Assembly (NCBI RefSeq): GCF_009909615.1
Contig: NZ_WWNE01000009.1
Location: forward strand, 1-64,000
Direction: 5' to 3'
Length of the DNA stretch: 64,000 nt
Source: Acidiluteibacter ferrifornacis
Lineage (GTDB): Bacteria > Bacteroidota > Bacteroidia > Flavobacteriales_E > Vicingaceae
This document shows, one piece after another, positions 3,323 to 22,556 of the stretch (position 1 is its first letter; every line of letters starts with the position of its first letter). Under the pieces are notes generated by a model. It was not told where the DNA came from. It searched no databases and saw only the letters and a program-made list of their open reading frames with translations. A program made the translations under genes and the position numbers.

Positions 3323-3949
3323 TAAATCGATTAACTCTTGCACAATCATTGCTGTTGCTCCCCAAACAATTCGGTTATTGAATTGAAAACAGGGAACTTT
3401 TAACTTTGCTCCATTTGGAAGTGATATGGTAGTAGTCGTTAAATATTCATTTCCTAAAATATCATGAATAGGCACCTCTATAATTTCTGCCACTTCATAC
3501 TCATCTTTGACGAAAGTAGGTCTTGTATTTGTATAGCCGATAAAAGGCGAAATGAGAAAATTACTTGGAGGAACATACAATTCTGAAAGTTCTCCAATTA
3601 TGAAGACTTCTTTATCTAATATTTTCAGTTCCTCATTAGCTTCTCTTAATGCTGTTTGGACTAAGTCTCTATCCGTTTCTTCCTTTTTCCCGCCAGGAAA
3701 CCCGACTTGAGCTGAATGAACGCCATCATAACTTTGTCTCAGAATAAAAACAACATGAGGAATTTCGTTTATGGGATAGAATAAAATTAATACCGCACTT
3801 TCGCGATATGCCTTGTTCTTTTTGACTTCTGATGCCAATGGTCGATTGTAAGACATCATCTTCTGATGCGCCAAATCTCCAGGCAACTCATTATTCAAAC
3901 GATTCTTTAAATCGGTAATAAAAAATTCAAATTTTGAGTTTACTTCCAC
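3314..3949 (-). CDS. Nudix hydrolase, CoA pyrophosphatase type (NudL-like)
   Basis: A 211-residue Nudix protein. The Nudix box lies at about residues 86-108 (GGKKEETD then LREANEEL). The preceding segment RQSYDGVHSAQVGFPGG is the signature that separates CoA pyrophosphatases (UPF0035) from other Nudix enzymes. Expected reaction: cleavage of CoA or acyl-CoA into phosphopantetheine and 3',5'-ADP, in the cytosol. The start overlaps the end of the upstream WG-repeat gene by 10 nt, so the two are co-transcribed, although no functional link is obvious. Confidence 0.85.
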   Translation of the reverse strand: MEVNSKFEFFITDLKNRLNNELPGDLAHQKMMSYNRPLASEVKKNKAYRESAVLILFYPINEIPHVVFILRQSYDGVHSAQVGFPGGKKEETDRDLVQTALREANEELKILDKEVFIIGELSELYVPPSNFLISPFIGYTNTRPTFVKDEYEVAEIIEVPIHDILGNEYLTTTTISLPNGAKLKVPCFQFNNRIVWGATAMIVQELIDLLD

Positions 3950-18861: not shown

Positions 18862-20391
18862 CTATTGTTTTATGAACACATTAGCTCGATACGTTTGTTG
18901 TTGACTGCCCAACTGCAGAATGTAGCTTCCTTGTTTTAGAGCTGCTACATTAATCGATTTCTCATTGGTAAGAATACCTTCTTGCATCAGTTGACCTGAA
19001 ATAGAAACTACTCGATAAGAATCACCGTTTTCTGCTCCATCTACTTTTAATAAATCCATTGTAGGATTTGGAAATACTCGAACAGAAGTGATTTGGGGAT
19101 TATTCTCTTTAATTCCAATTAAAAACGAATTTGGAATCTTAGTGACCACTGTAAAAATGCTGTCATCAGTCCATGCGTTGGAATATTGGCTTAATGCAAA
19201 GACGTCATCATTATTGTTTACTACGACGCTGTAACCAATATGATTTTTATTACCATAAAGAATTATACTATCCCGACTTAGAGTTGTTTGCTTACATAAA
19301 AATAAACCTCTGAAATCTTGTGCGTATCTGGAAACTAGGTCAAAACTAGAAGAACCAATGTAGTAATGAGCATTGCCTTTTAAAAAATTATTAGTAATTA
19401 TCTCATTAATAGTATCATTACCATACTCGCTAGTTGACAATATCGTGCCATTATAATCGAGCCTAATTGAAAACCCACCTCGATCTAATTGAAAATTAAA
19501 ATCTTTCAAAAAAGGAGTTTGAAACAACTCTCCACTAATTTCATAATACAATGGAAAGAAAGTATATCTATTATTATTATGACCAGACCATTGGTTTTGG
19601 TTCGTTAATGAAATAGTTTGAGCTTGTGTTAAGCTATTTACTTTTTGGACTTGAAAATTAAATCGATTAATAAAAATAAGATTAAGAAGTGTTTCATTTC
19701 CCATTAACAATAATGAATCATTTAAAGGAGAAATAGCGAGTGGTCCTTTACTTGAGGCAAAATTTGGAAAGATAGCGTTATCAGCAAATGATCCGTTACC
19801 GACATAGCTCCCATTCACATTAACCGCTTCGAGAAAAACGGTATCATTCGCTAAGTTTAAACAGCGCAAATAAATAGTGCTATCATAAATTAGTGGATAA
19901 TGTAACAATACTCGATTTTTTAGAGAGAAACTACTTACAATGCCATTTCTCAATCCTAATTGATTAATCGAATACACTTCTATGTGCAAACTTTTATCAA
20001 TTTGTGAAGCGACTGCTTTAAAATTATAAAAATTGTTATTTTTTTCATCAACAGTATTGAACACAACTGGTAAATAGCTAAATGTGCTAGGAGAATCTGT
20101 CAACAATGGAACATCTACCTGATAATTATAAACAGTATCTACATACCTTGTTGTTAAGTTATTAGAATTTATAAAAACGCGAACAAGGTATTGCAAGCGA
20201 TGACCAGATTGTTTAGTTCTATGATTAAAATAAACAGTTGAGTCATTCAATTCAAACAAGCGCTCAGGAATCAACCATGTTGAATCCTGAGCATTAAAAC
20301 CACTTGAAAATATTCTAGTTTGTATGTTTGTTTGTGATTTTAAACTTAAAAAGCAAAAACACATATTTAGAATAAATAAAAACTCTTTCAT
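18862..20391 (-). CDS. Secreted protein with T9SS type A sorting domain
   Basis: A 509-residue protein with a signal peptide (hydrophobic residues 4-15) and a large beta-rich central region I cannot assign. The last ~75 residues are a T9SS type A sorting domain: VRVFPNPTMDLLKVDG, then a segment like YRVVSISGQLMQEG, ending LKQGSYILQLGSQ and VFIKQ. It should be exported through the T9SS and released or anchored at the cell surface. It is 12 nt downstream of a lipoprotein gene whose reading frame is broken by a (CT)8 repeat; the two probably form one transcript. Confidence 0.87.
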   Translation of the reverse strand: MKEFLFILNMCFCFLSLKSQTNIQTRIFSSGFNAQDSTWLIPERLFELNDSTVYFNHRTKQSGHRLQYLVRVFINSNNLTTRYVDTVYNYQVDVPLLTDSPSTFSYLPVVFNTVDEKNNNFYNFKAVASQIDKSLHIEVYSINQLGLRNGIVSSFSLKNRVLLHYPLIYDSTIYLRCLNLANDTVFLEAVNVNGSYVGNGSFADNAIFPNFASSKGPLAISPLNDSLLLMGNETLLNLIFINRFNFQVQKVNSLTQAQTISLTNQNQWSGHNNNRYTFFPLYYEISGELFQTPFLKDFNFQLDRGGFSIRLDYNGTILSTSEYGNDTINEIITNNFLKGNAHYYIGSSSFDLVSRYAQDFRGLFLCKQTTLSRDSIILYGNKNHIGYSVVVNNNDDVFALSQYSNAWTDDSIFTVVTKIPNSFLIGIKENNPQITSVRVFPNPTMDLLKVDGAENGDSYRVVSISGQLMQEGILTNEKSINVAALKQGSYILQLGSQQQTYRANVFIKQ

Positions 20392-20403: not shown

Positions 20404-21471
20404 TTATTGATCGCAGTATGCTTTCCCAAAAAAGTACCATCCTGGATGGTGAAAATTTCTCCCATTTGCATTTGCAAAGTTGTTTCCAGAACTATATGCA
20501 AATAATTGTGCGTATAGAAACTCCATATCTTGAAAGCCTGTTTGAGCAGTAAAATAACTCTTCACAGCAGGTAAATTTTGAGTTGATTTATTATACCAAT
20601 TCATCCATTGTGCTTCGTTATCATATGTATCAGAATTATTCCCAATACAAGAATTGGTGTAACTTTGCCAATAGTAATTACCAATTTGGAATCCATTCCC
20701 GAAAATAGTTGTATTTTGATTAATATCTTCTAATTTCCAGGTTCCTTTTAATATTAAAGCTTTAGTCTCATTTGCATTACATACCAAATTAGCTGTTGTA
20801 GACAACCCATTTAAATAACTTGAAATAAAGTTCATTGCATCAACTCCCTGAGTATTTGAAGCGCCACACCAACCTGCTTTATTTGAACCATGAACTTCCC
20901 CTCCAGGAGTGTATGTGAAGTTCATTGAAGAGGAAGCTGCTGTACCAACACCTAACATTACATTAATTGTTGCTGAATTAGAACTCACATTTGTTAATGA
21001 TAAATCAGCCAGAATAAGGTACTGATTCGAATCAACATTAATTTCAGTATCTATATTATCCAGAATTTCAGAATAAAAAGAATTATAGTCTGAAGTTTCT
21101 ATGAAGTATTTGCCGTCTTCTTCAAAAATTGGAACTTCAAAAGTTGAAAAATAGCTATCTATTTCATCATTTGGATCAAGAATATGAGCATGAATTGCAT
21201 TTATTGTCCCTTCATAAAAAAAGAAAATATCACCTAAAGGAATAGCCTCTCCAGATTTGTCCGTATTAAGCTGCTTATTCTCTACAAGTTGATTTTTTAT
21301 CGGATTTATGACATTAAAAAAATCCTTATCAGTCATTTCTGAATACTTTGCATATGTTTCATTAACAATCCTACTTGCAAGTAATTCATTATTAAATCCA
21401 TTTGAATAATTCCCAGGCATAACGGGATCTGATTCAATTGCCTCCTTTTCGCAAGCCATTAGCCCAATCAT
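20404..21471 (-). CDS. Probable surface lipoprotein of unknown function, signal peptide out of frame at a (CT)8 repeat
   Basis: The intact frame encodes 355 residues beginning MIGLMACEKE, with Cys7 in a lipobox (LMAC) but no proper n-region. An ATG at 21538 starts MKNLKNLSLSL and then meets TAG at 21505-21503, because a CT repeat has eight copies. With nine copies the frame would run without a break into a perfect 30-residue lipoprotein signal peptide. I therefore think the real gene starts at 21538 and is either switched off or misread here. The mature part is acidic, rich in Asn and Ser, and matches no family I recognise. A -7 element (TATGTTTG) precedes the 21538 start. Confidence 0.72.
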   Translation of the reverse strand: MIGLMACEKEAIESDPVMPGNYSNGFNNELLASRIVNETYAKYSEMTDKDFFNVINPIKNQLVENKQLNTDKSGEAIPLGDIFFFYEGTINAIHAHILDPNDEIDSYFSTFEVPIFEEDGKYFIETSDYNSFYSEILDNIDTEINVDSNQYLILADLSLTNVSSNSATINVMLGVGTAASSSMNFTYTPGGEVHGSNKAGWCGASNTQGVDAMNFISSYLNGLSTTANLVCNANETKALILKGTWKLEDINQNTTIFGNGFQIGNYYWQSYTNSCIGNNSDTYDNEAQWMNWYNKSTQNLPAVKSYFTAQTGFQDMEFLYAQLFAYSSGNNFANANGRNFHHPGWYFFGKAYCDQ

Positions 21472-21504
21472 TGCAGCTGCAATTAAGTAAAAGCTAGCTT
21501 TTCT

Positions 21505-21520
21505 AGAGAGAGAGAGAGAG
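21505..21520 (-). repeat. (CT)8 dinucleotide repeat in a signal-peptide coding region
   Basis: Eight tandem CT units (AG on the plus strand). The distance from the ATG at 21538 to the intact frame at 21471 is 67 nt, which leaves a remainder of one. One extra CT (or two fewer) restores the frame. This is the usual layout of a slipped-strand phase-variation tract, although an assembly error would look the same. Confidence 0.85.
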
Positions 21521-21566
21521 ATTCTTTAAGTTTTTCATTTGTTTAAGTATTAAATTAGTAATTCCA

Positions 21567-21594
21567 CAAACATAAATAAAAAATCAATACACAA
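21567..21594 (-). promoter_or_regulatory. Promoter of the lipoprotein / T9SS cargo pair
   Basis: On the minus strand: TTG at 21594-21592, a 17-nt spacer, TATGTTTG at 21574-21567. It lies 28 nt before the ATG at 21538, which supports that upstream start rather than the internal Met at 21471. Confidence 0.55.
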
Positions 21595-21741
21595 AACGCT
21601 TTTTATCAATGCCTTACAAAGGTAAAAATTCTCGAACTTTTAAAAATGTGTGAAATACTAATATCCATAAGGCATTCAGGGGTTCTTCATTACAACCTAA
21701 CAATCAAAAATTTAACATTTTGATTATCAATTTCTGAGAAT

Positions 21742-21770
21742 AAAAAAAGGCTGCATCAAATGAAGCAGCC
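21742..21770 (-). terminator. Terminator after the toxin-antitoxin pair
   Basis: Hairpin with GGCTGC/GCAGCC stem (21749-21770) followed, on the minus strand, by seven T. The outer half is a 21-nt copy (21739-21759) of a segment at 22502-22522. Confidence 0.8.
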
Positions 21771-21777
21771 GTAATAA

Positions 21778-22107
21778 TTATAACCCAACAATTTTTAGGA
21801 GTTGATCCAATTTCCTATCAGAAATAGTGGCCTTATCGCTTTTATCGAAAATGGAGAGCAAGAAAATTGAATCATTCTCATTTTTAACGCAAATGATTAT
21901 GCGGCTGCCTCCACTCTTCCCTTTCCCTTTAGATGAAATGGCCATTCGAACTTCAAAACAATCCTTACCGAGAGCTTGTCCCTGTATTGGCTCTTATTTT
22001 AATTCAATAACTAATTTCTTAAAATCATTCTTCAAAGATGGGTACTTCTTAGAAAGCTTTTTTAATTCTTTTGTAAAAAAATCAGTGGTATAAATATTAT
22101 AGCTCAT
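21778..22107 (-). pseudogene. RelE/ParE-family toxin interrupted by one in-frame stop codon
   Basis: Read from the ATG at 22107, the frame gives MSYNIYTTDFFTKELKKLSK and on to LVIELK, then TAA at 21996-21994 (codon 38), then continues in the same frame for 71 residues (EPIQGQALGKDCFEVRMA, KGKGKSGGSRIII and so on) to TAA at 21778. The joined product, about 109 residues, has the shape of a RelE/ParE mRNA interferase or gyrase-type toxin. A single base change could create this stop. The start overlaps the antitoxin by 11 nt, the normal coupling in such pairs. Stop read-through or a sequencing error remains possible. Confidence 0.8.
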
Positions 22108-22315
22108 CTATCAATTGGTCGGCTGTTTTCAAAACGACTTCCCCTTTTAAGTGCTGATCAACTTGTTTTATTGATTTCTTTGTCCCTTCAATAAACTCTT
22201 GTTCATTTTTAGATAACGTATGCTCTTCTTTAATTTTCACAAATGGTAAGCTTTTAACCAACTCCAAAAAAAACTGATACTTATTATCGGGTACATTTAA
22301 AACTATTTGCTTCAT
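22097..22315 (-). CDS. Antitoxin of a type II toxin-antitoxin pair
   Basis: A 72-residue protein beginning MKQIVLNVPDNKYQFFLELV and continuing with a charged helical tail (LSKNEQEFIEGTKKSIKQVDQHLKG). The N-terminal beta strand followed by helix resembles small Bacteroidota antitoxins found directly upstream of RelE/ParE toxins. It is intact, whereas its toxin is broken. It is expected to bind the toxin through the C-terminal tail and repress its own promoter. I assign it by position and shape, not by a firm domain match. Confidence 0.75.
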   Translation of the reverse strand: MKQIVLNVPDNKYQFFLELVKSLPFVKIKEEHTLSKNEQEFIEGTKKSIKQVDQHLKGEVVLKTADQLIDEL

Positions 22316-22504: not shown

Positions 22505-22534
22505 AAAAAAAGGCTGCATCAACTAATGCAGCCT
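22505..22534 (-). terminator. Terminator after the phosphoglucomutase gene
   Basis: A 9-bp stem (AGGCTGCAT / ATGCAGCCT, 22511-22534) with a 6-nt loop and a T7 run on the minus strand. It starts 23 nt beyond the pgm stop codon. Confidence 0.88.
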
Positions 22535-22556
22535 TTCATATTTATATAGTTCTCTA

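Follow-up and report, generated by a model that had tools for sequence, protein, structure and literature searches.

In Neisseria, pentamer repeats in the leader-peptide codons of the opa genes form a translational switch. A comparable arrangement is established in Helicobacter, where CT repeats lie in the signal-sequence codons of the outer-membrane protein genes oipA, sabA and hopZ: in H. pylori oipA (hopH), hopZ and sabA, a CT tract occupies the 5' codons of a gene for an exported protein, and its copy number sets the reading frame (PMC10564699, PMC3960876). In Bacteroides, surface components such as surface polysaccharide and SusC/D genes are instead under invertible promoters, which are turned by recombinase-driven DNA inversion, and in part of a 2025 review inversion systems are the one context in which Bacteroides comes up. 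Our literature search found no report of repeat-driven lipoprotein switching in Bacteroidota, nor of short-tract switching in that phylum more generally. This is an absence rather than proof of a first, and it is consistent with the earlier note's remark that little is known of short-tract switching in this phylum.

The locus described here lies in a 64,000-nt stretch of DNA (the window) from Acidiluteibacter ferrifornacis, whose genome comprises 3,516,632 bases in 22 contigs, several of them shorter than 1 kb. A gene on the minus strand (20404..21538) encodes an apparent lipoprotein, and its frame is broken at a (CT)8 tract (21505..21520, minus strand) located within the signal-peptide codons. 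The tract is thus in the 5' coding region, and its unit is not a multiple of three. The minus strand reads ...AAACAAATGAAAAACTTAAAGAAT(CT)8AGAAAAGCTAGC..., with a single T preceding the tract, which begins 18 nt into the frame of the ATG at 21538. As assembled, this frame (21503..21538, minus strand) encodes the 11 residues MKNLKNLSLSL and ends at the TAG at 21505-21503. On the 3' side of the tract lies an open frame of 355 codons (20404..21471, minus strand) without an internal stop. The offset between the ATG at 21538 and this second frame is 67 nt, so that the two are one CT unit out of step, and the frame is restored by adding one unit or removing two. When we computed the frames for 4-13 copies, we found that 6, 9 and 12 copies give proteins of 376, 378 and 380 residues, and that every other count leads to a stop within 9-21 residues. 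A nine-copy tract would give the N-terminus MKNLKNLSLSLSRKASFYLIAAAMIGLMACEKEA, with a basic start, a hydrophobic core and a lipobox; the general layout is an n-region MKNLKN(LS)n-RK, a hydrophobic stretch, the lipobox LMAC and then CEKE, the cysteine codon being at 21453-21451. All of the coordinates and lengths that the earlier note had given for these features were reproduced on the sequence. Recomputing the frames also bore out its claims that a lipoprotein signal peptide is out of frame in the assembled sequence, and that one added CT brings an LMAC signal peptide into frame with the mature protein.

We consider it probable, judging from the sequence, that this is the OFF phase of a slipped-strand translational contingency switch of the Helicobacter oipA/hopZ type. 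The sole lesion of the gene coincides with the longest CT tract of the genome, a single unit repairs the frame, and the layout is the same as that of the established oipA, sabA and hopZ switch. The window locus, a candidate switch, differs from these genes in that it concerns an apparent Bacteroidota lipoprotein, is linked to a T9SS cargo gene and stands in a genome with MutS1; its lipoprotein belongs to no protein family among those searched. It shares with Neisseria opa a repeat-based translational switch layout within signal-peptide codons, and differs in the repeat unit, the protein class and the many copies that opa has per genome. The Bacteroides invertible promoters share with it the phylum and the involvement of surface components, but no such arrangement was found around the window promoter. 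The mechanism is one already known; the novelty lies in the host lineage, in the lipoprotein and in the link to T9SS. If the reading is correct, the classical repeat-in-signal-peptide switch would extend to a non-model, T9SS-bearing lineage of Bacteroidia, for which DNA inversion is the main source of phase variation put forward, and it would be tied to a lipoprotein-T9SS pair.

Under this switch reading, slippage during replication would add or remove CT units within the lipoprotein signal-peptide codons, so that one in three tract lengths would be ON. At 6, 9 or 12 units, the ribosome would read through from the ATG at 21538 to produce a lipoprotein precursor, which would be exported, cleaved before the cysteine of LMAC and lipidated; from the CEKE motif, transport to the cell surface is probable. 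At other unit numbers translation would end after 9-21 residues, and the assembled state would be OFF. The cargo gene, which follows after 12 nt, is probably on the same transcript, and the OFF phase may lower its expression through lost coupling or polarity. The benefit, we infer, would be to vary a surface structure that phage, predators or a host would encounter. Against a working switch, the genome encodes MutS1, so that slippage of an 8-unit tract may be infrequent and switching slow; H. pylori, the model for CT switching, is not known to have this repair, and (CT)8 is towards the low end of the tract lengths that switch.

The tract itself exceeds what chance would produce. We counted repeat patterns genome-wide and in a 300-kb sample, using dinucleotide frequencies and a first-order Markov model. 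(CT)8 occurs once in the 3,516,632 bases, and the genome-wide expectation under the Markov model for tracts of at least 8 CT units is 0.0008. In 100 shuffles of the window, with 2 mismatches permitted, the mean number of matches was 0.03. Tracts of at least 5 units number 7 (five of 5, one of 7 and one of 8) against 4.3 expected; the short classes are compatible with chance, and the two longest tracts are not. The genome is otherwise scarce in short repeats, which counts against the switch reading, as seen in the 300-kb sample, where no other dinucleotide tract exceeds 5 copies; in the whole genome there is no (AC)7 and no (AT)8. Codon choice does not account for the run, because CTC makes up only 4.8% of Leu codons in the 300-kb sample.

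The second-longest CT tract, a (CT)7, is found on contig 9 of the same genome at 116328-116341 (3329-3342 of locus L058), in a gene of the PorP/SprF family (TIGR03519). It too falls in a signal peptide and is in frame, and no CT tract is present in the PorP/SprF orthologs of two genomes of the same genus (G001, G002). This gene can be regarded as a second candidate switch, putatively in the ON state. Both long CT tracts of the genome, (CT)8 and (CT)7, thus lie in signal peptides, although two tracts are insufficient to claim a genome-wide habit.

The body of the lipoprotein is intact. Because no stop occurs in the 355 codons after the tract, the break is either recent or reversible. Compared with the orthologous gene in G016, the window gene differs at 154, 129 and 191 of 352 codons by codon position, a pattern that reflects a long shared history as a protein and is silent on the most recent period. 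The lipobox cysteine that a Bacteroidota surface lipoprotein requires was identified in LMAC by reading the sequence. A lipoprotein export consensus, C-X-K-(D/E)2, has been defined in a genus other than the host (PMC5080379), and measured against that other genus's signal the window's CEKEA (K, E and A at +3, +4 and +5) is a partial match; the orthologs carry CEKDE or CEKEE after the cleavage site. The protein has no Pfam or NCBIfam family match and no relative among the viral contigs searched. A structure prediction of the mature part from a three-row alignment gave a mean pLDDT of 42, which is too low for use.

Orthologs were found in two other genera of the same family, with 42% identity in G016 (a Bacteroidia MAG that has a second deposit, JAUIMG010000004.1) and 34% identity in G009. 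Their N-termini, MKNLKSLLLILAISLGIISCEKDE (G016, L005/L112) and MKNLFKTTDMLMALTIGMVSCEKEE (G009, L111), are in frame without a CT tract and lead to the lipoboxes IISC and MVSC. The MKNL start and the CEK past the cleavage site are common to both orthologs, which identifies 21538 as the real start, and since both are in frame from MKNL without a tract, this upstream start is ancestral. The longer start proposed in the earlier note is thereby borne out. Relative to both orthologs, on this sequence comparison, the tract region is an insertion, and the tract is what breaks the frame here. In a class sample of 395 genomes there was no ortholog besides these two; the one further match, in G232, is spurious and sits in an anthranilate phosphoribosyltransferase region. 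Nor did a profile search of 46 genomes of the family recover a further ortholog; its matches included the signal peptide that the neighbouring cassette in G009 shares. As the orthologs have no tract, the switch is not conserved.

Two candidate -7 elements lie upstream of 21538 on the minus strand. The first, TATGTTTG (21567..21574), has TTTG 17 nt upstream (TTTG-N17-TATGTTTG), and the second, TACCTTTG (21617..21624), fits TAHHTTTG and is without a TTTG -33 box. The published promoter consensus is TTTG/TANNTTTG, with TAHHTTTG as the -7 element, and TATGTTTG has a G at a position where G is reported nearly never (PMC6847099). The consensus would favour TACCTTTG over TATGTTTG as the -7 element, and we keep both as candidates. 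The earlier note had placed a promoter just before 21538: the position upstream of the longer start stands for both candidates, but the element is less secure, given the disfavoured G of one and the missing TTTG of the other.

A terminator-like stem with a T run after it (21746..21770, minus strand) stands between the operon and an upstream toxin-antitoxin-like unit, which suggests that transcription does not simply arrive from upstream. This unit (21779-22315, minus strand) consists of a 72-residue antitoxin-like ORF and then a RelE-like ORF that is interrupted by one in-frame TAA (21779-22100). It is flanked by two near-identical terminator-like stems, and neither member has an NCBIfam match over the cut-off. 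We also considered, and rejected, an RNA structure 5' in the lipoprotein gene region: folding was no better than that of shuffles, and the related loci have no Rfam family match.

The gene downstream (18862..20391, minus strand; 509 residues) starts 12 nt past the lipoprotein stop and carries a T9SS type A sorting domain that scores over the curated cut-offs of both TIGR04183 (E 3.7e-10, 39.7 bits against 23) and PF18962 (E 1.3e-8, 35.4 against 27). In G016 and G009 the genes that match it best come directly after the lipoprotein gene as well. The earlier note's placement of a T9SS cargo next downstream therefore holds, and the pair is conserved. A search of the 500 nt that precede the cargo gene gave no TAnnTTTG element, so co-transcription with the lipoprotein gene, whose candidate promoters lie upstream of 21538, is likely on the sequence.

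Several other explanations could account for a broken frame at this position. It is possible, though we judge it unlikely, that a recent slippage frameshift is in effect fixed here, leaving a young pseudogene with no reversal at a useful rate. A tract known from a single assembly, no other genome of the species having turned up, speaks against a switch and for such a pseudogene, as do the presence of MutS1 and the lack of a tract in the orthologs; also for the pseudogene is the decay seen nearby, in the interrupted RelE-like ORF at 21779-22100, and on contig 19, in a cassette with a deleted lipoprotein. Against this, the 355 codons show no other lesion, a tract frameshift can be undone by the same slippage that made it, and a tract far exceeding chance length is expanding rather than decaying. 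It is improbable that an assembly or base-calling miscount conceals nine true copies and a gene that is simply ON. Repeats are the usual site of miscounts, but this tract, at 17 nt with its leading T, is short enough for any read to span, and an assembly of 22 contigs, several below 1 kb, resembles short-read data, in which a 16-nt tract is seldom miscounted; even if nine copies were the truth, the tract and its proneness to slip would persist.

We think it very improbable that nothing is broken and that the ATG at 21471, or else some non-ATG codon of the downstream frame, serves as the start. That frame is open for 18 more codons before 21471, and a rare start inside them is conceivable. Starting at 21471, however, would leave MIGLMAC, which is too short for an export signal, and both orthologs begin with MKNL; no promoter element was found between 21538 and 21471, and AAACAA, which precedes 21538, is through its A at -6 a better match to Bacteroidota initiation than GCTGCA, which precedes 21471 (PMC6847099). 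Control by an invertible promoter, common as it is in Bacteroides, we regard as having next to no likelihood here. A 25-nt inverted pair (21746-21770 / 22512-22536) does span the upstream toxin-antitoxin-like unit, but its arms are the two terminator-like stems, which fold into separate hairpins, each with a T run, and they do not enclose the promoter region (21538-21745).

The window gene is part of one of the 'CEKE-lipoprotein + T9SS-cargo' cassettes, a family whose members often form tandem arrays in relatives. In G001, G007, G009 and G016, as in the window, an MKNL...CEKE/CEKD-type lipoprotein adjoins a T9SS sorting-domain protein; direct orthologs are those in G016 and G009, and the second array of G007 shows lipoproteins only in the stretch read. 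G001 has five pairs, G009 has three lipoproteins, two of them clearly paired with a T9SS protein, and G007 has two pairs together with a series of short lipoproteins in an array. Members of one array share 83-100% identity in the signal peptide, and identity in the mature parts can fall to 25-28% (G009a/b, G001a/b). The family cassettes differ from the window gene in that their CT tracts, where present, are upstream beside a 26-nt box and not in the signal peptide. Tandem cassettes with shared signal peptides, divergent bodies and upstream CT tracts are what would be expected of contingency surface genes, and this context raises the likelihood of the contingency-locus reading of the window gene, as a lead and not as proof. 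A broader proposal, in which repeat-driven surface variation is family-wide and CT tracts of varying length, in the signal peptide (window) or in a short upstream frame beside a cassette-specific box (relatives), singly switch tandemly amplified cassettes of shared signal peptides and divergent bodies, is doubtful at present, and we offer it tentatively.

The 26-nt box, TTTWAWGGNARANSNNSNTTTTDNNG, occurs at 11 sites in 5 of 61 genomes, each time 5' of a cassette lipoprotein gene or, in the decayed cassette on contig 19, 5' of the T9SS gene; a reversed control pattern gave scattered single matches in other genomes. Box loci are L111 (G009), L112 (G016), L138 and L139 (G007) and L110 (contig 19 of the window's own genome, G000), and three near-identical G001 copies bear a variant. 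The box was not found at the window cassette. Most boxes are preceded, at a distance of about 30-50 nt, by short CT tracts of 4, 5 and 7-10 copies, or by ACTC repeats in G009. In translation the box gives F-(Y/K)-G-(K/R)-x-(T/S)-F/I, and most of its changes are at the third position of a codon or exchange Thr for Ser codons or the reverse; in G001 a short frame from an ATG passes through the CT tract into the box, so that a small upstream protein is possible. These patterns suggest that the box encodes the last part of a short, conserved protein upstream of the cassette, often after Ser-Leu repeats that would be encoded by CT.

In G001, five tandem cassettes are found on contig 10 (470000-489900, L057), each made up of an upstream element with (CT)4-10, a CEKE lipoprotein and an exported protein, either with a T9SS domain or of another kind. 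Three of the G001 lipoproteins are 95-97% identical but diverge close to the C-terminus, as gene conversion or targeted diversification might leave them. The contig 19 locus of the window's genome (L110 3895-4250, about 364.9-365.3 kb) is a decayed cassette that has kept its T9SS paralog; its lipoprotein is reduced to the start and the C-terminal NFHHEGRFYYGLCVVC, and an upstream (CT)5 puts the short upstream frame out of step.

CT tracts are also found elsewhere in the class. We considered them as gene-start switches class-wide and rejected this, as most are intergenic, and they are not counted as support. The long intergenic tracts had no Rfam match among those scanned. Those at L059 and L065-L072 (G024, G025, G006, G041) have 11-23 copies and are mostly intergenic, with similar flanks, often TTTA(CT)nACGGCTGCAAG, and are dispersed repeats.
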